From Halodesulfovibrio spirochaetisodalis (GTDB lineage Bacteria; Desulfobacterota; Desulfovibrionia; Desulfovibrionales; Desulfovibrionaceae), in NCBI RefSeq assembly GCF_001672295.1, contig NZ_JXMS01000011.1, positions 1 through 64,000 on the forward strand: 64,000 bases of DNA, in the 5' to 3' direction. Below are positions 27,951 through 42,493 of the stretch, piece after piece. The notes below the pieces were generated by a model. The model saw only the letters and a list, made by a program, of their open reading frames with translations, searched no databases and was not told the DNA's origin. Position numbers and translations under genes: made by a program. Each line of letters starts with the position of its first letter. Position 1 is the first letter of the stretch.

Positions 27951-28290
27951 GTTGTGCTCGATAGTTAGCAGTGTTTACGTAGATAAGTCTTTTGCGGATG
28001 CTCTCTATTAAAAAAATATATGTGCTTGCGTGGAATGAATGAGTACAAAGCACAGCGTAATGGTAACAGTATGTATTTTGCCAAGTTGATGGTTTTCAAA
28101 AGGTAAAGGTGTATTATTGCGCTTTGAGTTTTGTAATTAAATAAATATTCGGTTGTAGAAAAACGAGGAATGCCCTCCACAAAATGAATTGTGGAGGGCA
28201 TTGTACGCTGGGGGCAGTACAGTTCTTGTTGAGAACATTGCTAGTCGTTAATGGTGAACTGTATGTTGTCTGAGATTATACAGGGGCTGG
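27951..28290. other. Intergenic region with a perfect 14-bp hairpin
   Basis: AT-rich DNA between two minus-strand genes. The only strong structure is AATGCCCTCCACAA (28169-28182) with TTGTGGAGGGCATT (28189-28202), loop of 6. It lies 90-120 bases beyond the lipoprotein gene stop and is probably its transcript end, although the U-run is displaced. A 78-residue frame overlapping it is not convincing. Confidence 0.5.
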
Positions 28291-28782
28291 CTAACGTCTG
28301 CCACCTGCACGGCCACCTCTGCCTCCTCTGCTTCCGCCGCCTCTTGGAATACGCATGCGCGGTGTTCCTCTGCTGCGGCTCACATTGCGAGAGTAGCTTC
28401 GGTTGTTGTAGTTGCGTCTACCACTCCGATAGGATGCTCTACGCGGGGCGTTGTAGCCCGGAGGACGTCCACCACGATAATATGTTGCGCGGCGCGGGGC
28501 TCTGTAGGCAGGTGGGCGTTTGCCTCTGTAATACGGAGGCCGTTTCCCTCTATAATATGGTGGGCGATTGTAGCGTCGGTGGTTATAATGGTTGTGGTAA
28601 TGTCTTCGACTCCAGTTGGGCGAATTATACCAGTATGGGGCATAGGTTACGTTGTAATAGTTAGTGTATCCGTAGTCATACCCGTAGTTATATCCATACC
28701 CTCCAGAAACGGTTGCAGTGCAGCCTGTCAGGTAGGCAAGCGCAATGGTACAACCGACCAGTAATATCAATCTCTTTGCCAT
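28291..28782 (-). CDS. Arg/Gly/Tyr-rich repeat lipoprotein
   Basis: A 163-residue protein. The start at 28782 has AAGGAG upstream and opens into a lipoprotein signal (MAKRLILLVGCTIALAYLTGC), cleaved before Cys21. The mature part is low complexity: GYGYNYGYDYGYTNYYN first, then repeated units of the form YYRGKRPP and Y-x-APRRA-x-Y, and finally an Arg-Gly tail with several GGR/RGG steps. It is very basic and disordered. No enzyme domain is present. It may coat the envelope or bind polyanions such as LPS, nucleic acid or extracellular polymer; this is inference only. The ORF is intact with no frameshift. Confidence 0.7.
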   Translation of the reverse strand: MAKRLILLVGCTIALAYLTGCTATVSGGYGYNYGYDYGYTNYYNVTYAPYWYNSPNWSRRHYHNHYNHRRYNRPPYYRGKRPPYYRGKRPPAYRAPRRATYYRGGRPPGYNAPRRASYRSGRRNYNNRSYSRNVSRSRGTPRMRIPRGGGSRGGRGGRAGGRR

Positions 28783-29090
28783 GCGTGTCTCCTTGGCAGC
28801 GCTGCCGGAATGCGGCGAAAAGTGCGTAAAAGCGCTGCTGCTATGTGTGTCTAGAAGGATAATAGCAGAGGGCATTGGCTTGATTTGAGTATTATTACCC
28901 TGCTGGAATGAGGGGAACAGGCAGGTGGTAGAATACTTATGTGCCAGTCAGGCTGGCTATCTAGCGGGGAGGATTATCTAATGAATTGTGCGGCACTAAA
29001 AAATGTCAAAGCAGCAAGACTATATTTTGCCTTGCCGGCTTTGACATTTCTAAAAAGTAGCATTGGACTAGCTAAGTTAAGACCGAATTA
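28783..29090. other. 308-bp intergenic region, lipoprotein promoter side
   Basis: It contains the promoter of the lipoprotein gene on the minus strand and, at 28999-29049, the terminator of the upstream LarA-N/TRAP operon. No gene was recognised. Confidence 0.4.
28999..29049 (-). terminator. Terminator of the TRAP/LarA-N operon
   Basis: AAATGTCAAAGC...GCAAG pairs with CTTGC...GGCTTTGACATTT around an AT-rich loop. The plus-strand A-run before it gives a U-run on the minus transcript. It lies 42 bases beyond the LarA-N stop. Confidence 0.75.
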
Positions 29091-30320
29091 TTAACACGTT
29101 TCGAAAGGCATGAGGGTGCCTGTGCTATCAAATGTGAGCGTGTTTGTTTTGTCGGGATGTACTGTGGCTCCAGCAGTTTTCAAATCAGAAAAAACAGCCT
29201 CAGTTGCCCAGAAATGTTGTAAGGACAGTGTGTTTGTGATGCGTACTGCTCGGAGTGTGGTTGGCGCTTTGGCAAGAGCGGCATCAATAACCGCTTTGTC
29301 AGTAGCGAGTGTTATAGGCATACGGCCGCTGGCCCATACTCCTGTAGTCAGAGAGTTCGCATAGGTTGCGGCAGGGTCAATGCTGTCTGCAAGGCGTTTG
29401 GGAATAAGATCGGCCATGCCTATGCCGTGAGCATTTCCTTGAGACTGCGGTGTCAGGTTGAGAACAACAAGTGTTTTGTACTCGGGCTTACGTTCTCCAG
29501 CCATACGGCGCCATGCACCGATGACATTCGTATCCATGCCCGTCCCACTGATATTTTTTCCCATTTCATCAATAATGAGCAGATCAAGAGTCTCTACTGG
29601 AATTCGAGGTAAAATAGCTGCTGAAATAGAAAGCAGGGAAGAGTCCGTACTGACGACCTCGTTGCTGGTGCATAATTTTAGTGTGTGGAGTTTTTCAACA
29701 GCATTTTCCACAACAGCAAGACCGGCGAGTAAATTGATATGTTCAAGAATACGCAGCGCTGCTGGTTTAATGACCTTCTCAAGGGGGAAGTTGTGGAGAT
29801 TATCAGCTCCTCGAGGTTTCCCAAGACCTATGGCAAGCATTTTACATAGACCGGACTCTACCTCTCCGTGGAACAGTGTATGCGGTTTTACACGATTCAT
29901 CACAAAGACGTAGTCTGCTTCCAGAGCGTCTTTTGCTACAAACACTTCAGCGCCTTCATCAAGAAGGCCGAGGCTGACTGTTTCAACAGAGGATACGATA
30001 GGGCAGCCTGCTGACTCTTCTGTGATGCCTAGTTTGGCAAGAATAGCGGTTTGACCTTCAGCCGTGGAGCCTCCATGAGATCCCATTGACGGGATAATGA
30101 AAGGACGCAGTCCGATAGACTTCAAGTTTCGTACAACAGCATGCAGCAACGGAACAATACGATCGATTCCGCGTGAGCCGACAGTGATGCCTACAGTGGC
30201 TTCAGGTTTTACTGTGCTACTGTCAAAAGAGGCAAAGGCCGTGTCCACGGCCTTTGCTATATTATCAATTCGGGACGTCTCAAAAGTTTGCTCAACGTCG
30301 TAGAAAGTAGGGTATGTCAT
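29091..30320 (-). CDS. LarA N-terminal-domain (DUF2088) protein
   Basis: A 409-residue cytoplasmic protein related to the N-terminal part of the nickel-pincer lactate racemase LarA. Visible segments are VGITVGSRGIDRIVPLL, IIPSMGSHGGSTAEGQ near 77-93, MNRVKPHTLFHGEVESGLCKMLAIGLGK near 140-168, and IIDEMGKNISGTGMDTNVIG near 250. It may racemise or epimerise a 2-hydroxy acid, but the nickel-pincer histidines of LarA cannot be assigned with confidence. The TRAP permease stop lies 10 bases upstream, so it is the last gene of the TAXI-TRAP operon and likely acts on the imported acid. Confidence 0.75.
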   Translation of the reverse strand: MTYPTFYDVEQTFETSRIDNIAKAVDTAFASFDSSTVKPEATVGITVGSRGIDRIVPLLHAVVRNLKSIGLRPFIIPSMGSHGGSTAEGQTAILAKLGITEESAGCPIVSSVETVSLGLLDEGAEVFVAKDALEADYVFVMNRVKPHTLFHGEVESGLCKMLAIGLGKPRGADNLHNFPLEKVIKPAALRILEHINLLAGLAVVENAVEKLHTLKLCTSNEVVSTDSSLLSISAAILPRIPVETLDLLIIDEMGKNISGTGMDTNVIGAWRRMAGERKPEYKTLVVLNLTPQSQGNAHGIGMADLIPKRLADSIDPAATYANSLTTGVWASGRMPITLATDKAVIDAALAKAPTTLRAVRITNTLSLQHFWATEAVFSDLKTAGATVHPDKTNTLTFDSTGTLMPFETC

Positions 30321-30330
30321 TATTGTCCTG

Positions 30331-32424
30331 CTATGCTGCTTCAGTCAGTGCTGCTTCTTCTGCCTCTTTTTCAAGATCAAATGCACTTGTATATTTGAGT
30401 ATTACGGTGAGGATAGCAAAAATGCCTGCTCCTATCCAGCACTGCAGTTCTGGCAGTGCATACAGGAGTACTGCGTTACATCCGAACAGAATACGAAGTA
30501 GCGGATGTAGCCTGCGGATATAGACACCTTCCAGCGAGACTGCAGTACAGAAAAGTGCCAGAAGGATAACGGCTATAGTCAGGATCGTCTGCCATAAAGG
30601 CCCAAGGAACAGAATCGCAGGTTCATATACAAACATAATCGGGATAATGAACAGTCCGCTCGCCAGCTTGAATGCATGGATTCCTGTCTGGAACGGGTCG
30701 GATTTCGCAATGCCGGCAGCTGTATATGCCGCAAGGCAGACAGGTGGTGTTACGTTGGCAGACTGTGAGTACCAGAAGATAAGCAAATGTGCTGCGAGCA
30801 GAAATACTGTGGCATGTTCCGGCGGAACTTGCGTGTTTATTATCGCAAACAGGGCTCCAGCTGCGGTGGGGTCTGTAATCATATCCAGACTCATTCCCAT
30901 AGACTCAATGAAGCCCGGATTTACTGCCATTACATACCGCAGCTTAATCAGGTTAACCAGAAACGGTGCACTCAGCGTTGCAAGGATGATGTAGGATGCC
31001 GTTACTGGCAGACCCATACCTAAAATAAGCGATGCGACTCCCACCAGCCCGATTGTTACAAGCAGGCTGGAGCCTGCAACCGTGGAAATAAGCATGGAAA
31101 ACTTAACCCCGAGACTTACCAGCAGAACAATACCGATAACGACTCCTGAACAAAGAAGGATGATGGCCGTGGCTACCATGTTTTTTCCGCCAAGAGCCAG
31201 AGCATCAACAATATCCATAAGTCCCATGCGGTGATTTTTTGTCAGCCAGCTGGCACCGACAATGGCACCAATAGCCCAGCATGCTGCATAGGTCGGTGTG
31301 TAGCCGATGCTCATAAGTGTGATCAGTACACCGATTGGGATAAAGAATGGCCATCCTTCTTTGAGGACATCAAAAAAGCGAGGGATATCTTCTTCCGCTG
31401 TCGGTTGCAGACCTTCACTACGGGCGCGTGAATGAACAAAAAAGATTACGCCGATGAAGTAAAGGATGGCGGGAATAAACGAAATGGCAACAATGTGGAG
31501 GTAAGAAATCTGTGTCCACTGCGCCATAACAAAAGCGCCTGCACCCATAATTGGCGGCATGATCTGACCACCGGTACTTGCGGCAGCTTCAACCGCTGCA
31601 GCAAATTTGGGGCTGAATCCGGTTCTTTTCATCATTGGAATGGTAATAGAGCCGGTGCTTACGGTGTTTGCTACGGCACTGCCGGAGACAGACCCCATAA
31701 GACCGCTGGAGAAGACAGCCATTTTTGCTGGGCCACCGACACTTCTGCCAACGATAGATATTGCGAGCTTAATGATAAAATCACCAGCACCGGATTTAAC
31801 AAGAAAAGATCCAAATAGTACAAACAGGAATACATATGATGCTGAAATAGTAGCAATGCTTCCGAAAATTCCATCCGGTGCAAAATACATGCGGTAAAGA
31901 ACGCGTGTAATGGTAACTCCGGGGAAGTTCCAGTTGCCAGAAAGGAACTGTCCCCAGTACAGGGCGTAGCTTAGGAAGAAGACGGCAAGCAAAGGAATAA
32001 TTTTACCGGCTGCGCGACGCGCAATCTCCAACATAAGCAGCAAGGTTATCCCTGCAAATACCATATCAAGAGGCACCATTTGCTCGTTACGGGCATGCAG
32101 CGCATCTTCAAAAAATACTAAATATAATCCGCATACAACGCTCAGTGTCGCAAGAAACCAGTCAACGTATGGTTTTTTATCCAGACTTTTTGCATTGAAT
32201 GGATAAATCATAAATGCCAGAGGCACAAAAAAAGCGTAGTGAAGAGCGTTGCGTTGGATTTCCGGCATAAGCCAGACAGTGTTTGTCAGTACGTGAAATA
32301 CGCTCGCAGCAATGCATAAACAGTAGAATACTGTGGCAGTGCGACCGGTAAGCTCACGTGTGCTGACCATTACTTCGCCTGAATCTTCCGTTGCTTCCAC
32401 TGGTTTCTTAGTGAACAAACCCAT
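30331..32424 (-). CDS. TRAP transporter fused permease (4TM/12TM, TAXI type)
   Basis: A 697-residue inner-membrane protein in which the small (DctQ) and large (DctM) subunits are fused, as is usual for TAXI-type TRAP systems. The DctM core signature GSVSGSAVANTVSTGSITIPMMKR at about 238-262 and EAAASTGGQIMPPIMGAGAFVM just after are diagnostic, and SLILGMGLPVTASYIILATL marks the second half. Uptake is driven by an ion gradient with the periplasmic receptor encoded upstream at 32657. The substrate is an unknown organic acid. Confidence 0.9.
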   Translation of the reverse strand: MGLFTKKPVEATEDSGEVMVSTRELTGRTATVFYCLCIAASVFHVLTNTVWLMPEIQRNALHYAFFVPLAFMIYPFNAKSLDKKPYVDWFLATLSVVCGLYLVFFEDALHARNEQMVPLDMVFAGITLLLMLEIARRAAGKIIPLLAVFFLSYALYWGQFLSGNWNFPGVTITRVLYRMYFAPDGIFGSIATISASYVFLFVLFGSFLVKSGAGDFIIKLAISIVGRSVGGPAKMAVFSSGLMGSVSGSAVANTVSTGSITIPMMKRTGFSPKFAAAVEAAASTGGQIMPPIMGAGAFVMAQWTQISYLHIVAISFIPAILYFIGVIFFVHSRARSEGLQPTAEEDIPRFFDVLKEGWPFFIPIGVLITLMSIGYTPTYAACWAIGAIVGASWLTKNHRMGLMDIVDALALGGKNMVATAIILLCSGVVIGIVLLVSLGVKFSMLISTVAGSSLLVTIGLVGVASLILGMGLPVTASYIILATLSAPFLVNLIKLRYVMAVNPGFIESMGMSLDMITDPTAAGALFAIINTQVPPEHATVFLLAAHLLIFWYSQSANVTPPVCLAAYTAAGIAKSDPFQTGIHAFKLASGLFIIPIMFVYEPAILFLGPLWQTILTIAVILLALFCTAVSLEGVYIRRLHPLLRILFGCNAVLLYALPELQCWIGAGIFAILTVILKYTSAFDLEKEAEEAALTEAA

Positions 32425-32625
32425 ATGTGAACCCTATGTAATTATTCAAAGTTTCTTAGTATATTTCCCGATAGCATCACCGGAAAATGAAAAGAACAAG
32501 CCTCAGCGCGCTATTCTCAAGAGTCATCTCTGGAGCGTTGCGCCTGAAGCGGCTGTTTGTGGCAGTTAAGACAGCACTGCTTTTTTAAGAAAATTCATAA
32601 AGTTGCAGTTACTATTGGATGGTCT

Positions 32626-32648
32626 CGCCGGAGGCAGAGCCTCCGGCG
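32626..32648 (-). terminator. Strong hairpin between TAXI receptor and permease genes
   Basis: A perfect 10-bp GC-rich stem CGCCGGAGGC / GCCTCCGGCG with AGA loop begins 9 bases beyond the receptor stop. There is no U-run, so it more likely stabilises the receptor transcript or attenuates, giving more receptor than permease. Confidence 0.55.
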
Positions 32649-32656
32649 GAGTCTAA

Positions 32657-33655
32657 CTATTTTGCAATAAGGCGTTCTGGGATTTCAATGCCCACTTCGC
32701 GGTAGTACTTGGCTGCGCCCGGATGCAGCGCAACAGGTAGACCGGAAAGCGCTGAGTCAAGACTCATATTCTTTGTTGCAGAGTGGATTGTGCCTAGGAA
32801 GTTGAGATTTTCGTAGATAGTTTTGGTAACCTTGTAGACTACGTCCTCAGGCATGTCTGCACGTACTGCAAGAAAGTTAGGCTGTGCAATTGTACGGATA
32901 TCTTTGGCTTGTCCCGGGTAGGTGTTCGCAGGAATTACGTAGCGGTACCAGATTGGGAAGTTTTTTTGGATAGTAGTAAGCTGCTCATCAGAAAAGTCGA
33001 GAACAGTGGCTTTGCCGTGGCTCATAGCAAACAGTTGTGTAATGGCTGCAGCAGGTACACCGGCAGGGATGTTTGCGCCGGCAATTCTGTTGTCGAGCAT
33101 GGCCTGTGTGGATGGTGTGTATCCGAGAAACTCGAGTTTGAGATCGTTTGCGTTGATATTGAGCGCCTTCAGCAAAGCACGGCCGGAGCCTTCTGTACCG
33201 CTGCCACGTTTACCAATGGAAAAACGGTCAGAGAGTGCACCAATATCTGCTACGGTGCCAGTCTTTGCATACTTACTCATGATGGCGAAGTGCTCGACGT
33301 TAGGCCACAGCATGGTAATGGAGCGGAAGGAATCTACAGGTTTTCCTTCATAGAATCCCATCCCGCGGGATGCCTGAAGGCCGAACAGTGACTGGAGAAT
33401 CGCAAAGTGCGCTTCTTTGTTTTTGAGCATCTCAATGTTTTCGCCGGAACCAGCTGAGTTAATGGCTGTCGCTGTAATACCATCTTTTTTAGCAAGCTTC
33501 AGGCTTACCAGTGTGCCGATTCCAACGCCAACAGGGTAGTATGTTCCCCCTGTAGTAGCAGTGGCAATAATAAGTCGCTTGTTATCTTGTGCCATGGCAG
33601 GGAAGCTCATGGTCAGTAATGCAGCAATAACGATGAGGGAACAAAGTCTACGCAC
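32657..33655 (-). CDS. TAXI-family TRAP transporter solute receptor
   Basis: About 332 residues. The GTG at 33655 is chosen because AAGGAG lies 7 bases before it; a GTG at 33661 would be only one base from that site. Signal peptide MRRLCSLIVIAALLTMSFPAMA, then a type II periplasmic binding fold with the TAXI marks ATATTGGTYYPVGVGIGTL at the mature N-terminus, GSGENIEML, and RGSGTEGSGRALL near 155. It delivers solute to the 30331-32424 permease. It is the first gene of the operon and divergent from a GntR regulator. The ligand is unknown; family members bind dicarboxylates, aromatic acids and others. Confidence 0.9.
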   Translation of the reverse strand: MRRLCSLIVIAALLTMSFPAMAQDNKRLIIATATTGGTYYPVGVGIGTLVSLKLAKKDGITATAINSAGSGENIEMLKNKEAHFAILQSLFGLQASRGMGFYEGKPVDSFRSITMLWPNVEHFAIMSKYAKTGTVADIGALSDRFSIGKRGSGTEGSGRALLKALNINANDLKLEFLGYTPSTQAMLDNRIAGANIPAGVPAAAITQLFAMSHGKATVLDFSDEQLTTIQKNFPIWYRYVIPANTYPGQAKDIRTIAQPNFLAVRADMPEDVVYKVTKTIYENLNFLGTIHSATKNMSLDSALSGLPVALHPGAAKYYREVGIEIPERLIAK

Positions 33656-33717
33656 GATCACACTCCTTGTCGCAATAAAATTTTAAACATCAATTGGTAA
33701 GAAGTATGTGTCAGCGC

Positions 33718-33757
33718 TTGACAAGATTGTCAACAATTTTGTTGTATGACTTGTCAC
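33718..33757. promoter_or_regulatory. Candidate GntR/FadR-type operators of the TAXI-TRAP operon
   Basis: A perfect dyad TTGACAA-GA-TTGTCAA (33718-33733) and a partial copy TTG-N6-TTGTCA (33742-33757) lie 24 bases apart in the divergent promoter region. Read on the minus strand the dyad also supplies a TTGACA -35 element facing the TAXI receptor gene, so regulator binding would block that promoter. Confidence 0.6.
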
Positions 33758-33891
33758 CCATCATGTTTTCAATACTGGACATAGAAGGATAGATATTTTA
33801 CTCAGCGGCTTCCCTTTTGTGGAAACTTGCGTATTATCCAGACCGCCTTTCGAGGTAGTTATCAATAAGTCAGTGATAGTAGGAATTTGGT

Positions 33892-34575
33892 ATGAAGGAA
33901 TTTCCACCTTGCCAGCAGGTGGCAGATCACTTGGAAGATCTTATTTTATCCGGCCAGCTGTTACCAAGGGAACGCCTTGGCGAAACAGACATGGCAGAGC
34001 GTTTTTGTGTTAAGCGCCATGTAATTCGTGATGCATTTAAGATTCTTGAGGGCAAAGGGCTTCTTGAAATCAAGCGTTACAAAGGTGCCCGTGTTGTAAG
34101 CCTCTCCGTTAAAGAGATTAGCGACGTGTTTGACATTCGCATTAATTTGGAACGGTTTGCATATAACCTTGCTTTGACCAATATGCGTGAAGAAGACTTT
34201 GCCGACTTGGAAAGAATTGCGCATAAGTTTCTTGATAGTGTAGATACGGCAAGTATTGAGGAATTAAGCAAGCTTAACACAGAATTCCACAATATTATCT
34301 ATAAGCGCGCAGACAATATTCCGTTGCTTGAAATTATTAACGATCTGCACATTAAGTTGTACATCACCCGTTTTGCAGCATGGGATAAAAGAGAAAACAT
34401 TATTCAGTCTGGTAAGGAACATCTTGAGTTTATAGATGCCTTACGAAAGAAGGACTTGGATGTGTTGAATGATCTTGCCCACAGGCATATATACAATTCA
34501 AAGACTGCGTATGAAAAACGAGTGTCAAAAATTACCCCGCTTGCCTTATGTGAAAAAGAAGTAGGGCTTGAGTAA
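33892..34575 (+). CDS. GntR-family (FadR subfamily) transcriptional regulator
   Basis: A 227-residue regulator. The N-terminal winged helix (about 8-70) has DHLEDLILSGQLLPRERLGETDMAERFCVKRHVIRDAFKILEGKGLL. The all-helical FCD ligand-binding domain (about 80-215) has DVFDIRINLERFA, EFHNIIYKRADN and HLEFIDALRKKD with a metal-binding His at HRHIYN, as in FadR/LldR-type sensors of organic acids. It is divergent from the TAXI-TRAP operon and probably represses it until its transported or metabolised acid is present. AGGAATTTGGT precedes the ATG. Confidence 0.9.
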   Translation: MKEFPPCQQVADHLEDLILSGQLLPRERLGETDMAERFCVKRHVIRDAFKILEGKGLLEIKRYKGARVVSLSVKEISDVFDIRINLERFAYNLALTNMREEDFADLERIAHKFLDSVDTASIEELSKLNTEFHNIIYKRADNIPLLEIINDLHIKLYITRFAAWDKRENIIQSGKEHLEFIDALRKKDLDVLNDLAHRHIYNSKTAYEKRVSKITPLALCEKEVGLE

Positions 34576-34581
34576 ATAAGG

Positions 34582-34615
34582 AATCGAATGTTCTGAAAGG
34601 AATATTCGATTTTTT
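34582..34615 (+). terminator. Terminator of the GntR gene
   Basis: AATCGAAT (34582-34589) pairs with ATTCGATT (34604-34611), followed by TTTT, 7 bases after the regulator stop. Confidence 0.65.
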
Positions 34616-34664
34616 ATTACCCTTGTGGCAGCGAGATGGAAAAATTGTTGTTTGAGCTTGTAAG

Positions 34665-35681
34665 CTAAGAACGAAGAGAAATAATGTCTCGGGTAATATC
34701 AGCAACACGTTTGTTACGCTGCAGCCAATCCCATAACCCCACTTCGGATTTCCATACATATCCCAAAAAGGCCGGATTCTTTGTGATAACCCATTCATAC
34801 ATGGACATGGAATGAGCAGATGACGGCTTAATTATTCCAGCTTTCTTTGCCCATGCTTCTACATAGGTGTGCCACGGGGAACTACTCAGGTAGTGGAGCA
34901 GTGCCTCTTGTTCTAAAAGCGAAGCATATTCACATTGCATAAGGCCGTTACTCAAGAGCCAGCGTATATCATGTAGCCGCTCTCTCTCCCTTTCAAAAAT
35001 AGCTGTGCGTATTTCATGCGGACAGATGGTATGGGTTTGCCGCGCCCATTCCAGAGTGTAGAATGTTGCATGCATTTTGGTGGCTATTTCAGCCAGAGCA
35101 TCCGGGGACGTGAATTGGAGAAAGTGATGCAGAATCTCTGCGCCATACACGATTTCTTGTTCAATAATACATGGCCGTAAATTGAGTGCATTCTTGCGCC
35201 ATCCTTGTTCCTCCAGACTGCTTGCAAATGTTCCGCATATGGAGTGCTCAAGTGTCGTTAAGGCTGTGATTGCATATTTTATTGCTGTAATCGCATCACG
35301 CCGTGCTACTTCAGCAGGTAACGAGTTTGCAGAGTCAGCTTGAGCGTTTGTATCAGCAATACTGTTGTAATATTCTCCAACGCCTTCCATCCCCTTGTGT
35401 CGAAGTTCTCTTGCGAGCAATGATCCAATTTTTCCTGTGCCGATTACTTTGATGTGCACTTTAAGGGCATCAGTGATTTCTCTGTACCAGAGGTTCTCCT
35501 CTGCATTTTCAGTACAATCCACTAAAATGATTGCTTTCACGTCCTCCCGTATATGTCGCCACACATCTCCTTGTGTGGCAGGAGGGTTGAGAATGAACTG
35601 GCGTAGATGATTCGGGAAAATTTTTGCAATATTTTGATGAGAAATGGTGTTTTCGCAAAAGACGACAATACGTTTAGGCAT
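34665..35681 (-). CDS. TfuA-like protein with C-terminal extension (orphan, no YcaO nearby)
   Basis: A 338-residue cytoplasmic protein. Residues about 30-110 align by eye with the TfuA core: NPPATQGDVWR (TfuA: PP-x-x-x-GD), KAIILVDCTE (A-I-x-L-I-D), then LWYREITDALKVHIKVIGTGKIGSLLARELRHKGMEGVGEYY, matching W-[HY]-[KR]-E-I-x-x-A-L and the G-x-x-S-x-G-A-L-R-A-x-E / GM-x-GVG pattern, with several core substitutions (KIG for SMG). The remaining ~225 residues are helical and unrecognised. Known TfuA proteins work with YcaO enzymes to make thioamides, in methanogen McrA and in peptides; no YcaO is in this window. AAGGAC precedes the ATG. It follows a small membrane-protein gene by 24 bases. Confidence 0.6.
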   Translation of the reverse strand: MPKRIVVFCENTISHQNIAKIFPNHLRQFILNPPATQGDVWRHIREDVKAIILVDCTENAEENLWYREITDALKVHIKVIGTGKIGSLLARELRHKGMEGVGEYYNSIADTNAQADSANSLPAEVARRDAITAIKYAITALTTLEHSICGTFASSLEEQGWRKNALNLRPCIIEQEIVYGAEILHHFLQFTSPDALAEIATKMHATFYTLEWARQTHTICPHEIRTAIFERERERLHDIRWLLSNGLMQCEYASLLEQEALLHYLSSSPWHTYVEAWAKKAGIIKPSSAHSMSMYEWVITKNPAFLGYVWKSEVGLWDWLQRNKRVADITRDIISLRS

Positions 35682-35705
35682 GAAAGTCCTTCATGAATGA
35701 ACTCG

Positions 35706-36020
35706 TTACTTGTTGGAAATGGCTGCAAGTAGTCCGGTAAGTCCTATAATCAGGAGGATGGGAATGTAGATGACGCCCCATAATGGTTTGTAAAAGAAGG
35801 CGATAAAGATGGTTATTAAAATGAGTGTGGCTTGTATGAGGAGAAGTGCGGTACGGCGTTGAGAAGCCCAGGCACTAAAGGATTTCCAGATAAGCAAAGC
35901 TATCGGGATAATCAGAATGAGTGCCCACCAGTTAATGTCTGGAAAAATCAGGCGAACGATAAGTGCAAGTGCAATAATGATAATGGCAACATAACTTATG
36001 ACAGAGCCTCGATTCTTCAT
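35706..36020 (-). CDS. Small multi-span membrane protein
   Basis: 104 residues from the ATG at 36020, which has AGAGGTT upstream; the longer frame to 36143 has no ribosome site. Four hydrophobic helices cover about residues 8-28, 30-46, 57-77 and 80-100. No known family was recognised. It is not an SMR exporter: the conserved Glu of helix 1 is absent. It precedes the TfuA-like gene by 24 bases and is probably co-transcribed. Confidence 0.55.
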   Translation of the reverse strand: MKNRGSVISYVAIIIIALALIVRLIFPDINWWALILIIPIALLIWKSFSAWASQRRTALLLIQATLILITIFIAFFYKPLWGVIYIPILLIIGLTGLLAAISNK

Positions 36021-36481
36021 GGGAACCTCTTTTACAAGGGCAGTTGGGTGTTGGGTTAATACTACATAGGTTTTCAGGTTGGTTCGTTTATTATTACATT
36101 CATCATGGTTTGATGCTGCAGGGCTGAACGAAAGGTGTGACATGCCTCTAACGTGGGCGAGTAGCTTTTTGAGTGCCCCTAACGTGGGCGCTTTTGGGGT
36201 AAAGGATTTCTCTTGTTTTTAGGCGGGGTGGAGGTGTTGAAGATTATGAGGATGTTTTTTTTAGTGCTATCTATTTGAAAAAACAATTTTAAATCTAATT
36301 CTCTGCTCATTGTGTGTGCGTTTGTATTTGAGTTGGCACTCTTTCTGCTACTAGAACATTGTGTCAGCGGAACTGTTTGCAAGTGTTTTATAGGGAACGC
36401 TGAAAGTTTCGGTTGCTGATGCAATACTCCCGAGCTGGTCAGTATACAGTTGATATCGAAAATACTGATAAGGAATTGTGA
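36021..36481. other. 461-bp intergenic region with tandem mini-hairpins
   Basis: It separates the divergent membrane-protein and small winged-helix genes. It contains two copies of a 15-mer hairpin at 36144-36189 (see that entry). A 142-residue minus-strand frame here overlaps the plus-strand gene and has no ribosome site or recognisable domain. Confidence 0.4.
36144..36189 (-). repeat. Tandem 15-bp hairpin repeats
   Basis: On the minus strand the 15-mers GCCCACGTTAGGGGC (36189-36175) and GCCCACGTTAGAGGC (36158-36144) are separated by 16 bases. Each forms a 4-bp stem with an identical ACGTTAG loop. They lie about 125-170 bases upstream of the small membrane-protein gene on the same strand, so they would be in its leader RNA. 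Function unknown. Confidence 0.45.
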
Positions 36482-36784
36482 ATGTTTATTGATCGCAAGC
36501 TTGATTGCCGAATTTTGGCTTGTGCGAAAACGTATCCTGAGAATGGGGTGCAGGTAGATGCAGCCCGAGAAATTATTGCTACCAAACGTCCTGAGACGTT
36601 GGGGCATGAGTTTTTAGAGCATTTAAAGCGGCTACGAGAGCTGGAGTACGTAGAGTATCCAGATTTTGAGCAGTGTGATGTATCGTCAGAAACAGACGAA
36701 CATGGCACAATGCGATATACAATCACCTCTAAAGGTGAAGAATACCTACAGGCAATGCTTAACAGCGATTTGTTTGATTTCTGA
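36482..36784 (+). CDS. Small winged-helix-like protein of unknown function
   Basis: 100 residues with AAGGA seven bases before the ATG. The pattern is that of a short winged helix: LDCRILACAKTYPENGVQVDAA, then HEFLEHLKRLRELEYVEYPD, then MRYTITSKGEEYLQAML, where a beta wing (RYTITSKGEEYL) follows the recognition helix. This resembles DUF2513 or phage-type regulators, but no family is certain. It stands alone on the plus strand. Confidence 0.55.
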   Translation: MFIDRKLDCRILACAKTYPENGVQVDAAREIIATKRPETLGHEFLEHLKRLRELEYVEYPDFEQCDVSSETDEHGTMRYTITSKGEEYLQAMLNSDLFDF

Positions 36785-36998
36785 TAGAATAGTTTGCATC
36801 TTGTGCGTGCAGTAACTTGGTATGTGGAACCCCATGTGGCGTAAGTGGGAAAACCGTAATGTTAGTTTATACTCTTGCAAACAATGTGGGCATAATGGCG
36901 AAGAATGATGGAGTGCCCAGTTGTTATTGTAAGAGCATATGTCGCGCATCTCTTTGCTATAACTCGTTGATTAAAATAATGTGACCTATTCTATATGT

Positions 36999-37031
36999 AA
37001 AAAGGCGGTATCAGTTTGATACCGCCTTTTT
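36999..37031. terminator. Bidirectional terminator
   Basis: A 14-bp perfect stem AAAAAGGCGGTATC / GATACCGCCTTTTT with a 5-base loop and U-runs in both directions. It lies 14 bases beyond the stop of the minus-strand HU-like gene. Confidence 0.85.
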
Positions 37032-37044
37032 CGTGCAATGGACA

Positions 37045-37395
37045 TTATTCGTCGATCGCTGCCTCTAAACTTGGCGCTGCATGGAATGTTACAGTACGCT
37101 TGCCGTTTACAGTATCGACCTTAAACTTGCCAAGTCCGCCCAGATCAATTGTCTGGCCGTTTTTCAATCCCATAACAATTGCTGCTTTTACAACATCGAA
37201 AGCAAGATACGCTTCGTATTCATCAGCAAACTTGTCACTCATCGCAGTTGTCAGGTTGTTTACGATATTTTGCGTATACCCTGTGATCGGGTCATGTTTA
37301 ACGCGTTCACGAACTGCTTCTATATCGGGTGCAACTACTTGGCATTCGCTGGTAGTGCAGGACATGCATACGCCGGGATAATCTTGGTTAGCCAT
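37045..37395 (-). CDS. HU/IHF-like DNA-binding domain protein with cysteine-rich N-terminus
   Basis: 116 residues, GAAAGGAG before the ATG. The middle and C-terminal part (AYLAFDVVKAAIVMGLKNGQTIDLGGLGKFKVDTVNGKRTVTFHAAPSLEAAI) resembles the HU/IHF core: a helix pair, the G-x-x-x-x-L-x-G-x-G-x-F strand turn, then a shortened arm. The usual R-x-G-R-N-P arm tip is missing. The N-terminal ~20 residues hold three cysteines (GVCMSCTTSEC), possibly a metal site. It may be a divergent nucleoid protein or a phage-type CCDC81/HU-like protein. DNA binding is inferred. Confidence 0.5.
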   Translation of the reverse strand: MANQDYPGVCMSCTTSECQVVAPDIEAVRERVKHDPITGYTQNIVNNLTTAMSDKFADEYEAYLAFDVVKAAIVMGLKNGQTIDLGGLGKFKVDTVNGKRTVTFHAAPSLEAAIDE

Positions 37396-37845
37396 GAAAT
37401 GCTCCTTTCTCTACATGTGTTGCGCAAGAATACCACGTCACATTTGTTCAGGTCTATTTGATAGCCTGTAGAAACTTTCATGACTAAGAGGGAAGCGGCA
37501 GAGAGAGTGTTGTTCGTAATCAGTAGGTCAACGTCTTTGTGTGGTCGAAACATAAGGAGGACCCCAGGATTCCTAACTTACTTGCTGAAGTGTTTTTAGC
37601 GTTGCTGATTAAAATTTGAGAGTTCGAAATGAGCTGTGGAGAATTGGGGAAAGGCTGCTTTCAACTTGCTTTTATATTTTTTTGAAAGATTACCTTCTGT
37701 CGTTGCGGGCTTTTTTTTAGATCAATACTTGATGTGGCCGTTAGTAGTCCACCTGCTGATTGCAGAATTGAGTGATGATGCTACTATGAGCAGAACCAGT
37801 TTGGGAGCCTTATCGCTTCCTGATTGTACTTAAGGAGGGCTATCA
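37396..37845. other. 450-bp intergenic region
   Basis: Divergent region between the HU-like gene (minus) and the 37846 gene (plus). A 65-residue frame at 37636-37833 has a hydrophobic stretch but no ribosome site or family match and is not called. No strong hairpin was seen. Confidence 0.3.
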
Positions 37846-38157
37846 ATGACTATGTATATTTGTCACTTTACCTGTAACCCCGCGATGTGGCCTGTAGAAC
37901 ATGAGGATCAGATCAGGGTTTGGAGAAGTATGGTTAAGGATGCTGATATGCTGGTTGAGGGCGAAGGGCCTGTTAAATTTACCGGCTGGATCAGCAATAC
38001 GGAAGGGTATGCGCTACTTGAAGCAAAATCTAAAAATGAAGTGATTCAATTGTGCGCGCGCTTCTGGCCTTATTTTTACAACGACATTAGAGAAATAGTG
38101 CCTACACATGAGGCAGGTGATGCTATTCTGGCAGGCGCAAAAGAAGGTTGGGAATAG
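37846..38157 (+). CDS. Small DUF3303-like protein
   Basis: 103 residues with AAGGAGGG six bases before the ATG. The sequence MYICHFTCNPAMWPVEHEDQIRVW, GWISNTEGYALLEAKSKNEVIQLCARFWPYFYNDIREIVPTHEAGDAI has the alternating beta-alpha-beta pattern of a dimeric ferredoxin-like barrel, as in DUF3303 proteins. No catalytic residues are known for that family. It is a single-gene unit with its own terminator. Confidence 0.6.
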   Translation: MTMYICHFTCNPAMWPVEHEDQIRVWRSMVKDADMLVEGEGPVKFTGWISNTEGYALLEAKSKNEVIQLCARFWPYFYNDIREIVPTHEAGDAILAGAKEGWE

Positions 38158-38205
38158 CTGATTTTCTTAGGGCGTTAGCCTGATGTAGTAATAAAATTCG
38201 TAAAG

Positions 38206-38242
38206 CGTCTCTGATTTCTTAGGGTGTCAGAGACGTTTTTTT
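38206..38242 (+). terminator. Intrinsic terminator after the DUF3303-like gene
   Basis: CGTCTCTGA (38206-38214) pairs with TCAGAGACG (38227-38235) followed by TTTTTTT. It lies about 48 bases after the stop. Confidence 0.85.
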
Positions 38243-38323
38243 ATGCTGCGGTGGTGCAATTTTTGCTTGTTTTTTAGAGCGGTTAATAGATGGGCTGTTT
38301 TAAAAAAATAAGGGGTGATACCT

Positions 38324-38749
38324 GTGGCAGGTTTCAAGTTAGTTAAGCCTGAACTATGTGGATGTTTATTAAACTTGTTTGTTGTTTTTCCCATTACAAC
38401 TTTGGTTTCATATAATGCTTTGGCAGATGTGTACGCTATCTATACCGAACAGGAGGTTGTCACTTATAACCTTGCAACGTGCCTTTGGGCTGTGGTTGCT
38501 TTTATGTGTGCTCCGATAGCTGCTGGATCGTTGTGGTATGTAGTCACTCGACAGGAGTGCTCTGTGGCATTTCATAACGTTATAACCCGTGTGTTTGTCA
38601 TCTTTTTCAGCGTTGGATTAGTGTCATCGGTTGTGTTTAACTTTTGGGTTACAGACTATCTGGAAGAAAAGGGATACATGCACTGCGAAAAACGTATTAC
38701 TGGACCCAGCATGAAAAAATATGTGAAATATGAGTATCTTTGCCGTTGA
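38324..38749 (+). CDS. Small membrane protein of unknown function
   Basis: About 141 residues from the GTG at 38324, chosen because AAGGGG lies eight bases upstream, too close to an earlier GTG at 38315. Three hydrophobic segments are seen at about residues 12-30, 50-72 and 85-108, and the C-terminal ~30 residues are soluble with two cysteines (MHCEKRITGPS...EYLCR). No family was recognised; it faintly resembles DUF1240-type proteins. It sits next to the tail-cluster repressor but on the other strand and is probably not part of that cluster. Confidence 0.45.
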   Translation: MAGFKLVKPELCGCLLNLFVVFPITTLVSYNALADVYAIYTEQEVVTYNLATCLWAVVAFMCAPIAAGSLWYVVTRQECSVAFHNVITRVFVIFFSVGLVSSVVFNFWVTDYLEEKGYMHCEKRITGPSMKKYVKYEYLCR

Positions 38750-38811
38750 GAAGAGTTTTTCAGATCCTAGATTTTTCTGACTAGTAAGTAACTTTTTATA
38801 AAAGCAACAGG

Positions 38812-39306
38812 TTATCTGTGCTGTGCTGCTTGTTTTTCAGCTTTTTTAAACAGCACGGTAGCTCCTACCTCAACTGTATTGCAAAAGCGGTGTAGCAACT
38901 CTCCGGTGAGTGGTGCTGTGCCAGCAAGAATTGCTTCAATGTGTGCTTGCGATATGCCGATTTGATCAACAAGATTTTGTATCGAAAGTTCGGCTTCGTG
39001 AGCGCATTCTTTAAGAACGCGGCCTAGTGCTTTGTCAAATTCCGTAAGTGGGTTGGCAGGTTGCGTGACTGGCAGGTTGACAAGCTTTTCGAACGGGATG
39101 TTTAGTGCTTTTGCATAGCGTATCATATCGCCAAACGTTGTGCGGTCACCTCCTCGTTCTTCGCTGAGCCAGCGGCTTACCGCAACTTTAGTTACCCCCA
39201 TTTTTTGGGCAATAGAGAGTTGGGTTTGCCCTGCGGCATATTCTTGCCGGATTCTATCCATAATTACTGCCCATGCCTGAGCATTTTCTGTGGTATGTGT
39301 TGTCAT
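38812..39306 (-). CDS. XRE-family helix-turn-helix repressor of the tail cluster
   Basis: About 164 residues from the ATG at 39306; a TTG at 39342 is possible but falls inside a palindromic operator. The N-terminal helix-turn-helix (about 12-65) has QTQLSIAQKMGVTKVAVSRWLSEERGG followed by MIRYAKALNIPFEKLV. A second helical region (SIQNLVDQIGISQAHIEAILAGTAPLT) resembles another HTH. It is divergent from the tail cluster and positioned like a prophage CI/C repressor. No RecA-cleavage peptidase domain is present, so release from repression needs a different mechanism. Confidence 0.75.
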   Translation of the reverse strand: MTTHTTENAQAWAVIMDRIRQEYAAGQTQLSIAQKMGVTKVAVSRWLSEERGGDRTTFGDMIRYAKALNIPFEKLVNLPVTQPANPLTEFDKALGRVLKECAHEAELSIQNLVDQIGISQAHIEAILAGTAPLTGELLHRFCNTVEVGATVLFKKAEKQAAQHR

Positions 39307-39317
39307 GCAGGAACTAT

Positions 39318-39340
39318 GTGTCACAAAGTTACCTTGTGTC
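39318..39340. promoter_or_regulatory. Near-palindromic operator at the repressor promoter
   Basis: TGTCACAAaGT-t-ACcTTGTGtCA lies immediately upstream of the repressor start. The minus-strand arm includes TTGACA, a -35-like element for the repressor gene, so autorepression is likely. A smaller 6-bp inverted repeat (TGCGGT / ACCGCA) follows at about 39350-39371. Confidence 0.5.
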
Positions 39341-39440
39341 AACTTTTTATTGCGGTAAAGAGTAACCGCATGGTATCTGTTCGTTTGGATGTCTACTTCA
39401 GGTAGCAGTGAATTTCAGTAAATTATGCTAGGAGAATAGA

Positions 39441-39629
39441 ATGTTATGTCCAAAGTGCGGTGGCAAAACACATGTCCCAAGATCTAATGTAGCAGATGAA
39501 GAGTATGTTGTTCGGCAGCGTGTTTGCAAGCAATGTGGAAACAAAGCTGTCTCAGTAGAGGTGTTTTTATCTTCTATGCAAAATGGATTAGAGTATATTA
39601 CAAAGGAAAAATTGTCTGATTTAATATAA
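39441..39629 (+). CDS. Ogr/Delta-like zinc-finger transcription activator
   Basis: 62 residues with AGGAG before the ATG. It has C-P-K-C at residues 3-6 and C-K-Q-C at 29-32, that is C-x2-C-x22-C-x2-C. P2 Ogr has the very similar C-x2-C-x22-C-x4-C. P2 Ogr turns on late tail and head promoters by binding TGT-N12-ACA sites, and such sites occur in this cluster (39645, 41922). It lies first on the plus strand of the tail cluster and is followed by its own terminator. Confidence 0.6.
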   Translation: MLCPKCGGKTHVPRSNVADEEYVVRQRVCKQCGNKAVSVEVFLSSMQNGLEYITKEKLSDLI

Positions 39630-39639
39630 AAAATTAAAA

Positions 39640-39667
39640 TTATGTGTATCCAAGTGTATACACATAA
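39640..39667. promoter_or_regulatory. Inverted repeat containing a TGT-N12-ACA core
   Basis: TTATGTGTA (39640-39648) and TACACATAA (39659-39667) are perfect 9-bp arms. Inside is TGT (39645-39647)-N12-ACA (39660-39662), the P2 Ogr spacing. It lies just upstream of the first structural transcription unit of the tail cluster. Confidence 0.45.
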
Positions 39668-39692
39668 CACTTTTTATAAACCTCGTACTGTG

Positions 39693-39723
39693 AGCACATG
39701 CTTTTATGCATGTGCTTTTTTGT
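39693..39723 (+). terminator. Terminator after the Ogr-like gene
   Basis: AGCACATGC pairs with GCATGTGCT around TTTTAT, followed by seven T's. Confidence 0.85.
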
Positions 39724-39848
39724 TTTTAAAATATAGGTGCGAGGATGTATGAAGAATCATTTATGCATTTTTAGGGTTAATGCGTTCATTGTTACTACTT
39801 TTATGCATTTTCTTCAGCAGCGTCCACAGAGTGAAGGAGATTGCTAGA

Positions 39849-40130
39849 ATGAAGGTGCATGTTCAGGAAACAGTAGATCTGGTTTCAGCAGGATTGCGAC
39901 TTGGGGTTAAAGCGTATGAATCTGCCCTCAGACTTGAGTCTGCCGGACATAATGTTCCCGGGTTGGATGAGTTTCTTCGTCGAATGACTCAGGTTCACAG
40001 AGTGGCAGATGATTCAGGAAATAGTTCTGGAGGGTCAGGAACACCTGCTTCCCTTGAAAAGCATCCAGTGTGTTTTGCAACAGTTGCTTCCGATGGAAGT
40101 ACTCCTGTGCAGTTGAAGCAAAGGAGGTAG
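39849..40130 (+). CDS. Small helical protein, tail cluster, unknown function
   Basis: 93 residues from the ATG at 39849 (AAGGAG nine bases upstream); the longer frame from 39780 lacks a site. The first ~50 residues are amphipathic helices (VQETVDLVSAGLRLGVKAYESALRLESAG), and the C-terminus is a Gly/Ser-rich linker. It lies five bases before the Mor-like gene and is presumably an early regulatory-unit protein. No family is recognised. Confidence 0.5.
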   Translation: MKVHVQETVDLVSAGLRLGVKAYESALRLESAGHNVPGLDEFLRRMTQVHRVADDSGNSSGGSGTPASLEKHPVCFATVASDGSTPVQLKQRR

Positions 40131-40135
40131 CAGCG

Positions 40136-40519
40136 ATGCAGTCTGAAATTGTACAGCTACCACCCACTGCTCAGGAAATTGCCAGTGTCATTGGTGTGGA
40201 AAAAACACTGCAGCTTGTGCGCGGTAAACAGAAAGAAAAAAGCCGCAGCCTTTATGTGCCGAGTCCGGCACGAATGCATTCATCGCACTGGCTTGTAAAA
40301 ACTATCGGAGAAGACGCTGCACTGGAACTGGCACAGGAGTATGCAGGTGAGCCTTTAACAATTCCGCGCTGCTCAAGCTTTACAAAGCTTGAGCGTAATT
40401 CACGCATAATTCGGATGCGGCAGCAGGGACTGCGGTATCAGGAAATAGCGGATGCCTTGGGCATGGGGATATCAGCAGTGAAGATGGTCTATAGCCGTTG
40501 GGTGAAGAGTCAGGAGTAG
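40136..40519 (+). CDS. Mor-family transcription activator
   Basis: 127 residues from the ATG at 40136, which has AAAGGAGG upstream. The layout matches Mu Mor/C: a dimerisation region SVIGVEKTLQLVRGKQKEKSRSLYVPS, then LVKTIGEDAALELAQEYAGEPLTIPRCSSF, then a helix-turn-helix IIRMRQQGLRYQEIADALGMGISAVKMVYSRW. Known Mor/C proteins activate middle and late promoters by distorting the spacer. Finding a Mor-type activator next to an Ogr-type one ahead of P2-like tail genes is unusual. It is five bases after the preceding gene. Confidence 0.8.
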   Translation: MQSEIVQLPPTAQEIASVIGVEKTLQLVRGKQKEKSRSLYVPSPARMHSSHWLVKTIGEDAALELAQEYAGEPLTIPRCSSFTKLERNSRIIRMRQQGLRYQEIADALGMGISAVKMVYSRWVKSQE

Positions 40520-40576
40520 ATGGAATGCGGTCTGGATACAATGCACAGATCTTACAGCAATAAGTGTGGAGTTACT

Positions 40577-41161
40577 ATGGCAGATACAGAATTACAGTCG
40601 GCAGGTGCAGGGACGGAGAGTTCCCATACAGTAACCATTGAGAACATCCATCAAGCAGTACTTGATACGGTTGCAAAAGCTTTTCCACTTTTTAAAACAG
40701 TTGCAGAAGATGCACCCCTTGTCACAGATACGGGTGATGCTATGGGGAAACTACCTTATGCGGCTCCTGCCTGCATTGTTTCTATGCCGCTGTTTGAGAG
40801 CAAGAAGCGTGAATGCGCTGACTTGCTGCCTGTTGACCTGCATTTCGAGTTGAGAATTGTTGGCGCATATAGTGGTGAAGGAGCAGATCGAAAAACAAGG
40901 CAGCTGGCTGGAGCGTTAGCGCAATGCATCGAAGGAAATAGATTTGGCTTACCAATGCGTGGGGCAGAGTTTGTTCGTGCGAAGGCTGATACCACATTGC
41001 CAGCGCTGCATCATCTTTGTCCGTGGCTGATTGAGTTTACACTTTCGGTCTATCTCGGGACAGAAGAAGGGGATGATTTCACAATGCCGGAGAAGGCATA
41101 CGTGTCCATGGCACCGGAGGTTGGGTTGGCACATATCGATAAATACAAGTTGTTAGGGTGA
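40577..41161 (+). CDS. Tail completion/terminator-like protein (DUF1834/gp37-like)
   Basis: 194 residues from the ATG at 40577 (GGAG upstream). It starts IENIHQAVLDTVAKAFPLFKTVAED and contains FELRIVGAYSGEGADRKTRQLAGALAQCIEGNRFGLP, then LCPWLIEFTLSVYLG. This alpha/beta pattern, and the position directly before gene V, match tail terminator or gp37-type proteins of Mu- and P2-like tails, which cap the tube. Assignment rests on position and general pattern. Confidence 0.55.
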   Translation: MADTELQSAGAGTESSHTVTIENIHQAVLDTVAKAFPLFKTVAEDAPLVTDTGDAMGKLPYAAPACIVSMPLFESKKRECADLLPVDLHFELRIVGAYSGEGADRKTRQLAGALAQCIEGNRFGLPMRGAEFVRAKADTTLPALHHLCPWLIEFTLSVYLGTEEGDDFTMPEKAYVSMAPEVGLAHIDKYKLLG

Positions 41162-41171
41162 GGAGTGCATA

Positions 41172-41900
41172 ATGAATTTTCAATTGGCTGAACTGCAACG
41201 GCAGTTTCATACCATGGTTCGCATAGGCACAGTACATTCTGTTGATTACGAAAAAAATTGTGCGCGTGTGGAGTTTGGAACCGTGGTTACAGACTATCTG
41301 CCGTGGATTGCTGCAAGGGCAGCGGGGAATCGTACGTACGATGCCCTTGAGGTGGGCGAGCAGGTGCTGGTGATTACTCCAGCTGGTCATGCGTTGGGGG
41401 TGATTGTGGGGACATTGAACCAGACAGCATATCCCGCACCGGAACATAGTCCTGATATTCAAAAAACAATCTATAAAGATGGCTCCGTCATCATGTACGA
41501 CAGGAGCAGCCATGTTTTGACTGCAGATATCAAAGGCGATGTTACGGTTAAGGCAGAAGGTGCCGTGTCAGTAGATGCAGGTAGCAATATATCCTGCAAA
41601 GCCGGAGGCAACATCCTTGCTCAGGCTGAGGCGGATGTAACAGTCAAAGCTGCAGGTGCTGTTTCTATCACAGCAGGTTCCTCTGCAACAATTGAAGCTC
41701 CTCAGATATCTCTTAATGGTGTGACCTCAATAAACGGTGCACTTACACAAGGTGGCGGCTCCGGTGGAGGGAATGCGAGCTTTAAAGGAAGCCTGCATGC
41801 GTCAGAAACCATCTCAACTGATGCTGATGTTGTTGCTGGGGTTTCGCTGAACAGCCATACCCATTCGTGCAAAGAAGGCGGAACAGGTTCACCCTCATAG
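41172..41900 (+). CDS. Baseplate assembly protein V (tail spike)
   Basis: 242 residues, GAGGAG before the ATG. The N-terminal OB-like domain has MVRIGTVHSVDYEKNCARVEFG and GEQVLVITPAG. A repetitive beta-helix follows at about 100-190 (VTVKAEGAVSVDAGSNISCKAGGNI and related units). The tip ends VSLNSHTHSCKEGG, where the H-T-H pair matches the iron-binding HxH of the P2/phi92 membrane-piercing spike. The trimer would form the needle tip of the contractile tail. Confidence 0.88.
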   Translation: MNFQLAELQRQFHTMVRIGTVHSVDYEKNCARVEFGTVVTDYLPWIAARAAGNRTYDALEVGEQVLVITPAGHALGVIVGTLNQTAYPAPEHSPDIQKTIYKDGSVIMYDRSSHVLTADIKGDVTVKAEGAVSVDAGSNISCKAGGNILAQAEADVTVKAAGAVSITAGSSATIEAPQISLNGVTSINGALTQGGGSGGGNASFKGSLHASETISTDADVVAGVSLNSHTHSCKEGGTGSPS

Positions 41901-42154
41901 CGAACAGTTCCTCGTGAGGTTTGTGATTTGAACCCGACACATGATCTATCGTATGTATTGTTTGTTTTTATGTAACTTGTTTTGTGTTGTGGGAAAAGGT
42001 GTCGTTACATTCATCGTTATGTCATGTATCGATACCTTATTTGATAGTTTATGTATGTTACGAGGATGCTACGCTTAAAGAAAAAAATACATATTTTACG
42101 CAATAGTCACAAACTGCATTGGAATAGTTTGTCGCACACTGCTAATTTGCACTC
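41901..42154. other. 254-bp noncoding gap between V and W
   Basis: AT-rich and without an ORF, although V and W abut in P2. It contains TGT (41922-41924)-N12-ACA (41937-41939), extended on the right to ACACAT, like the site at 39645-39665. A promoter here would start the W-J-I-H-G transcript. No Shine-Dalgarno sequence precedes the W start codon. Confidence 0.45.
41922..41942 (+). promoter_or_regulatory. Candidate Ogr-type activator site
   Basis: TGT-GATTTGAACCCG-ACACAT keeps the P2 Ogr spacing (TGT-N12-ACA). About 40 bases downstream lies an AT-rich TATGTAACT stretch that could serve as a -10, in keeping with the -55 position of Ogr sites. Confidence 0.4.
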
Positions 42155-42493
42155 ATGAACGGTATTAATAAACACACCGGAGAGAGACTCTCCGGCATAG
42201 CGCATTTACGGCAGTCCATTGCTGACATTCTTTCAACCCGAATTGGTACACGGGTGTTGAATCGAGAGTACGGTTCGCGATTGCCAAGTCTCATTGATGC
42301 GCCGGTTAATGCAGACACTTCTTTGGAGTTTTATGCAGCGACAGCGGAAGCCCTGCATCGTTGGGAGCCGAGGTTTACGTTGAAAAATGTTCGCATTGCA
42401 TCATTAACAGACGGTGTGCTGGCTCTGAATCTGACAGGTGAATACCTGCCGGACGGTAAGCAGATCACACTTGAAGGAGTGGAGGTAACATGA
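42155..42493 (+). CDS. Baseplate wedge protein W (gp25-like)
   Basis: 112 residues. MNGINKHTGERLSGIAHLRQSIADIL followed by STRIGTRVLNREYGSRLPSLID is characteristic of P2 gpW / T4 gp25. It forms the inner wedge and contacts the sheath. The start is fixed by family alignment, yet there is no ribosome site upstream. It overlaps the J start by ATGA. Confidence 0.9.
   Translation: MNGINKHTGERLSGIAHLRQSIADILSTRIGTRVLNREYGSRLPSLIDAPVNADTSLEFYAATAEALHRWEPRFTLKNVRIASLTDGVLALNLTGEYLPDGKQITLEGVEVT

Follow-up and report, generated by a model that had tools for sequence, protein, structure and literature searches.

The stretch of DNA analysed here, hereafter the window, comprises 64,000 nucleotides of the genome of Halodesulfovibrio spirochaetisodalis, an organism that we take to be a relative of Desulfovibrio. 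It contains a small island formed from a TfuA-like gene, a small membrane gene and a divergent gene for a 100-aa protein (Table 1). The membrane gene lies directly upstream of the TfuA-like gene, its stop codon 24 bp from the TfuA start. Its ATG is preceded by a GAGGT motif, and a longer version of the reading frame would begin at 36143. Family matches for the 100-aa protein are weak and all below threshold. The island is flanked by a GntR/FCD regulator, which has homologues at E ≤ 1e-40 in six of the ten genomes of the genus, and by a 116-aa protein that is presumably HU/IHF-like.

Both edges of the island carry terminator-like elements. A stem-loop comparable to that behind the window's GntR gene is found after the same gene in the congener G001 and in three of the four congeners with an empty site (see below); it is not clear in G005. 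The right edge consists of an inverted repeat that adjoins the 116-aa gene. In addition to the two direct repeats TGCCYCTAACGTGGGCG listed in the table, whose starts are 31 bp apart, a third copy that is 82% alike lies at 37060-37076. On the GntR side, positions 29091-34575 encode, together with the regulator itself, a TAXI TRAP transporter and a nickel-pincer isomerase of the LarA type that passes the cut-off of NCBIfam group 22; this set probably serves hydroxy acid uptake and isomerisation. On the other side, the reading frames from 39780-43377 onward resemble what we take to be a Mu-type prophage with baseplate-like proteins. Anti-phage defence was also considered as a reading and rejected, as a PADLOC scan of six proteins (E ≤ 0.1) returned one weak match, for the 108-aa protein of G001 (E 0.024), and its models gave no support.

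Table 1. Features of the island, its flanks and the loci compared with it
Feature	Position	Strand	Basis or remark
GntR/FCD regulator, left neighbour of the island	33892-34575	plus	family match
89-bp stretch between the GntR and TfuA stop codons	34576-34664		G001 has a 1143-bp YcaO gene here
Stem-loop and T run behind the GntR gene, left island edge	34582-34611	plus	read from the sequence
TfuA-like gene, 338 aa	34665-35681	minus	ORF list; PF07812; profile match to PDB 6xp8
C-terminal part of TfuA, about 228 residues (111-338)	34668-35351	minus	relatives found only within the window/G001 pair
Small membrane protein, 104 aa	35706-36020	minus	four hydrophobic segments by eye; ortholog in G001
Two 17-bp direct repeats, upstream of the membrane gene	36143-36190		repeat scan
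100-aa protein, divergent from the membrane-TfuA pair	36482-36784	plus	47% identity to the G001 counterpart
Perfect 15-bp inverted repeat, terminator-like, right edge	36999-37031		repeat scan
116-aa protein, right neighbour of the island	37045-37395	minus	tblastn to five congeners
570-aa YcaO with a long N-terminal part	L008:6077-7789 (G000:C1)		sole YcaO of the window's genome
Orphan TfuA and helix-turn-helix loci	L055:3453-4726; also L067, L068, L069, L070, L076		Sinorhizobium plasmids

The TfuA-like protein and its membrane partner

The initial annotation described the larger gene product as a TfuA-like protein, and comparison with the family bears this out. The reading frame runs through 338 codons with no internal stop. 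Pfam PF07812 (TfuA) matches residues 61-124 at 40.2 bits (E 3.5e-10), above the curated cut-off of 30, and a two-row profile of the window and G001 proteins matches the solved TfuA structure 6xp8 over positions 4-114 (E 4.4e-13). The TfuA core thus occupies approximately residues 4-114, and the protein is a genuine TfuA. Membership of the McrA-glycine thioamidation equivalog was rejected, the window protein scoring 64 bits in NF033432, far below the cut-off of 235.2. A fold prediction from the single sequence (mean pLDDT 41.6) was too poor for use.

The long C-terminal part, noted previously as some 225 unknown residues, is indeed unlike known families: beyond approximately residue 125 no Pfam or NCBIfam family scores over its cut-off. 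Alignment by hhalign to the C-termini of other long TfuA proteins gave a short collinear similarity at just 1-2% probability, and kinship with these was dropped when shuffled sequences outscored the C-terminal part on a seven-row HMM. Between the window and G001, identity is 50% over the first 120 residues and 44% over residues 121-170, and rises to 73% over residues 171-338. The C-terminal part and the membrane protein, which is 76% identical in the two genomes, are therefore better conserved than the TfuA core.

Proteins of this type are scarce. Among 98 other genomes only G001 encodes a full-length relative, with 59% identity over 338 residues, and in a full-length protein search G039 gave a weak match to the TfuA core only (E 3e-8). 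Genome-contig scans, from which records near the window's genome may have been omitted, and a scan of viral contigs returned no further relatives. Across 395 genomes of the phylum the two-row profile matches the window's own genome only, with the same outcome for PF07812; among 348 genomes of the class any TfuA occurs in four, the window's own included, and in the genus in two of ten. The membrane protein, which scores under every Pfam cut-off, is encoded in two of 99 genomes (own included), exactly the two with a full-length TfuA of the window type. The genes adjoin in both, and the proposed pairing of TfuA and membrane gene is thus real, if seen in just these two genomes. No reading frame of at least 15 aa between the genes is common to the window and G001 islands, once frames that overlap the genes, and short matches of a few residues such as chance would give, are set aside. 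A precursor peptide is therefore not evident at the locus, and it is possible that the target is encoded elsewhere.

The sister locus and the missing YcaO

No YcaO was found near the window TfuA by tblastn of five YcaO proteins against positions 28001-44000 (1e-5), in agreement with the initial annotation. A PF02624 search of the genome for a distant YcaO, a check that it suggested, gives one, the 570-aa protein of Table 1; this gene is unlinked, on another contig. The genome is 99% complete and the TfuA locus lies in the interior of one contig.

The G001 island has the same two neighbours as that of the window, the GntR gene on one side and the 116-aa gene on the other. In G001 the membrane gene, TfuA and a 380-aa YcaO follow one another in one direction, with 9 bp from the TfuA stop to the YcaO start. 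The 89 bp in the corresponding position of the window contain no recognisable YcaO remnant, the sole alignment to G001 being 18 bp of the GntR terminator. In four further congeners (G002, G005, G008 and G009) the GntR and 116-aa genes stand side by side and no island gene was matched; this comparison covers the congeners with a GntR match at 1e-40, which G003, G004, G006 and G007 did not give. Five flanking genes are 84-92% identical between the window and G001. A tree of two flanking proteins groups the window's genome (G000) weakly with G001 (67/89), the G000 branch being the longer (0.078 versus 0.033).

The G001 YcaO scores 172 bits in the Pfam YcaO family and passes the general YcaO domain model TIGR00702 (120 versus 75.65 bits). 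Its best NCBIfam model is the YcaO of McrA-glycine thioamidation (163 bits, below the cut-off of 365) and its best PDB match is MJ1094. These family and structural matches place the TfuA-YcaO pair closer to thioamide formers than to azoline formers. The protein departs at eight of 38 positions on which 11 or all of the 12 other YcaOs compared agree, and the G001 pair may therefore itself be inactive. G001 also carries, on contig C14 (L051:5311-14570), four YcaO genes flanked by methyltransferase-like genes; two further reading frames there we take to be E1/ThiF-like and nitroreductase-like, respectively, and as a whole these genes have the look of a cluster for an azol(in)e peptide. G039 contains two similar sets (L009:7152-12287 and L010:7127-12539) with a YcaO, a TfuA (459 and 464 aa) and a 670-727-aa protein. 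Each presumably also includes a small glyoxalase-like protein, and the L010 set lies near what we take to be an FlhA/HrcV-like export gene.

YcaO and TfuA are neighbours at 20 of the 21 further TfuA loci that were tested, a hand-picked sample from hit lists in which some rows already showed a YcaO, so that it leans toward YcaO; all four other TfuA loci found in the class adjoin one. Because the G001 island ends in a YcaO directly after TfuA, the absence of this gene from the window is best read as a loss. The simplest history is that a four-gene island was gained before the split of G000 and G001 and that YcaO was then lost in G000. It is probable, and we hold it with good confidence, that the window retains the remainder of a thioamidation locus. 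We infer the direction of this change from one sister genome, while the synteny, the empty sites, the missing YcaO and the intact reading frames are direct observations. The window does not have the adjacent YcaO by which a YcaO-TfuA thioamidated RiPP cluster is recognised; its G001 counterpart does.

TfuA genes without a neighbouring YcaO

If YcaO has been lost, the state of the TfuA gene that remains can be assessed in several ways. Against all seven outgroups, which are mutually non-independent, the window branch of the TfuA core has accumulated more changes (11-19) than that of G001 (6-11). The relative-rate chi-squared values are 3.86, 4.48 and 4.48 for the three outgroups that exceed 3.84, 3.57 for one and lower for three. 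The flanking controls have equal counts (6:6 for GntR and 4:4 for the 116-aa protein), although the tree described above gives G000 the longer branch in these two proteins. Relaxed constraint on the core after the loss of YcaO would produce this faster change in the window. Of 38 shared core positions 22 are kept in the window and 25 in G001, and the G001 protein reaches 60.1 bits in PF07812, compared with the lower score of the window protein given above. On its sequence the window TfuA is nevertheless not plainly decayed, given the absence of a stop and the core positions retained. Over both branches combined, pN is 0.25 and pS 0.74; the exact dN/dS is unobtainable as synonymous sites are near saturation. 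Judged from these proportions, amino-acid change in TfuA is held back between the two genomes. Of the 3042 possible single changes in the TfuA frame 140 create a stop, so that, without constraint, a disrupted frame becomes probable at about 0.064-0.072 changes per site. The intact frame thus requires either a recent loss of YcaO (under about 0.07 neutral changes per site) or ongoing selection.

A second case is found on Sinorhizobium plasmids. The one locus of the 21 that has no adjacent YcaO is the TfuA on pSymB of S. meliloti. Close relatives of this TfuA occur on 115 plasmid records, from which 11 loci were examined. Five (S. mexicanum, Ensifer adhaerens, E. canadensis, Neorhizobium galegae and Rhizobium sp. 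CC1099) have the order helix-turn-helix gene, YcaO, TfuA. In the other six (S. meliloti Rm41 and 2011, S. medicae, Sinorhizobium sp. CCBAU 05631, S. sojae and S. americanum) the helix-turn-helix gene adjoins TfuA in a stretch without YcaO. The spacer between these two genes is too diverged for proof of one deletion. For five of the six, all but S. americanum, the whole plasmid record was searched and no YcaO was found; these searches covered plasmids only. The S. americanum TfuA frame is broken (94 aa), while the other five are intact at 236-243 aa; the single stop scored at L070 and at L073 reflects matches that reach or pass the end of the reading frame. Comparison between the four species whose genes are intact gives a dN/dS of 0.145-0.222 at dS 0.81-1.63, similar to the 0.20-0.31 of three YcaO-linked TfuA pairs of the same group. 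Between S. meliloti and S. medicae, the value for TfuA is 0.200, compared with 0.063 for the neighbouring helix-turn-helix gene and 0.046 for ANTAR, and this tighter constraint on the neighbours counts against a strong role for the orphan TfuA. In the S. medicae strain other YcaOs occur on a different plasmid, and YcaOs with about 33-36% identity to that of E. adhaerens are present on certain S. meliloti plasmids, so that a partner acting in trans is possible in Sinorhizobium.

Such a partner can also be considered for the window, where the 570-aa YcaO is present with an intact frame and thioamidation could continue in trans even after loss of the linked gene. This protein falls under the cut-off of every NCBIfam model that it matches. 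Proteins with its match pattern occur in nine of the ten genus genomes, seven of them without TfuA, which indicates that this YcaO has no need of TfuA. With its last 325 residues aligned, it also departs from 12 of 38 positions that TfuA-linked YcaOs have in common, although six of the 12 are gaps, and we regard the trans arrangement as improbable. The initial annotation had suggested instead that the gene may define a separate TfuA branch with a different substrate. A different substrate is possible. For the branch to be by nature free of YcaO, TfuA and the membrane protein would be the original unit and G001 would have gained its YcaO later, which would accord with the higher conservation of the C-terminal part and membrane protein over the first 120 residues and with the off-consensus G001 YcaO. 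The proposal is left unsupported by the sister locus, which still has a YcaO, in the same island, directly behind TfuA. A loss is more likely than the arrival of a YcaO at that very place and in the same orientation, and the near-constant presence of YcaO at other TfuA loci, including all those in the class, points the same way; a YcaO-free origin is very improbable.

Within the preferred reading, loss of the linked YcaO, what remains may be a functionless leftover, a sub-case whose likelihood overlaps with that of the loss itself. The lower PF07812 score, the slightly smaller share of core positions and the excess of changes against every outgroup speak for this. Against it stand the two intact reading frames and a pN far below pS, a value that covers both branches and may include time before the loss. 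On balance a functionless leftover is a serious possibility, falling somewhat short of an even chance. The other course is that TfuA has a role without a neighbouring YcaO and was kept by selection at least twice, here and in several Sinorhizobium species, which we put forward tentatively as possible rather than likely. Such a role may be, for example, the release of sulfide from a carrier protein or the binding of a membrane target. A YcaO-independent or trans-acting role of TfuA in the window and in Sinorhizobium is plausible but unproven. The converse, YcaO without TfuA, is known from some methanogens according to PMC5589413 and PMC6511847. TfuA kept after YcaO loss was not found in the literature searched, a scope outside which most subscription journals lie. 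Selection acting on TfuA alone would mean that the protein does more than assist YcaO. If there is no such selection, the window locus clearly illustrates how a thioamidation system decays step by step, and it cautions against predicting thioamides from a TfuA match alone.

Proposed function and relation to known systems

The known pathway begins with the ATP-dependent activation of the peptide backbone by YcaO, followed by attack of sulfide. By analogy, in the intact island of G001, which consists of the 100-aa protein, the membrane protein, TfuA with its private C-terminal part and YcaO, the YcaO would use ATP in activating an amide in the backbone of its target, a peptide or a protein, whose oxygen would then be exchanged for sulfide. 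Delivery or placement of this sulfide would fall to TfuA. The extra part of TfuA and the membrane protein probably hold the target or anchor the complex; this is our guess, and it would fit their stronger conservation. Deprived of its YcaO gene, the window locus is no longer able to support the original chemistry, and the TfuA-membrane pair would be either a recently orphaned leftover or retained for another role. An allosteric action of TfuA was put forward as a hypothesis in PMC8120280. In PMC13063428, with reference to Liu et al. (2021), the sulfide is supplied from a thiocarboxylated carrier of the ThiS type by TfuA acting as a hydrolase. The latter source also states that certain thioamide-forming YcaOs stem from high-sulfide organisms. 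In a Desulfovibrio relative, as we take the window's organism to be, sulfide supply by TfuA might be dispensable.

The window shares its TfuA core with the YcaO-TfuA thioamidation pairs of thioviridamide (TvaH/TvaI) and of the methanogen McrA thioglycine, and the adjacent YcaO of G001 is nearest to the McrA type. The window differs from these pairs in having no YcaO, in its extra C-terminal part and membrane gene, and in that no precursor was seen. The likeness to 6xp8 covers the core; that protein has 217 aa compared with 338, and the last approximately 225 residues of the window TfuA are unmatched in it. The orphan TfuAs of Sinorhizobium are shorter (236-243 aa), have the usual core motif and different neighbours, and are not accompanied by a membrane gene. 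They nevertheless resemble the window locus in that TfuA persists after the loss of a neighbouring YcaO that related plasmids have.
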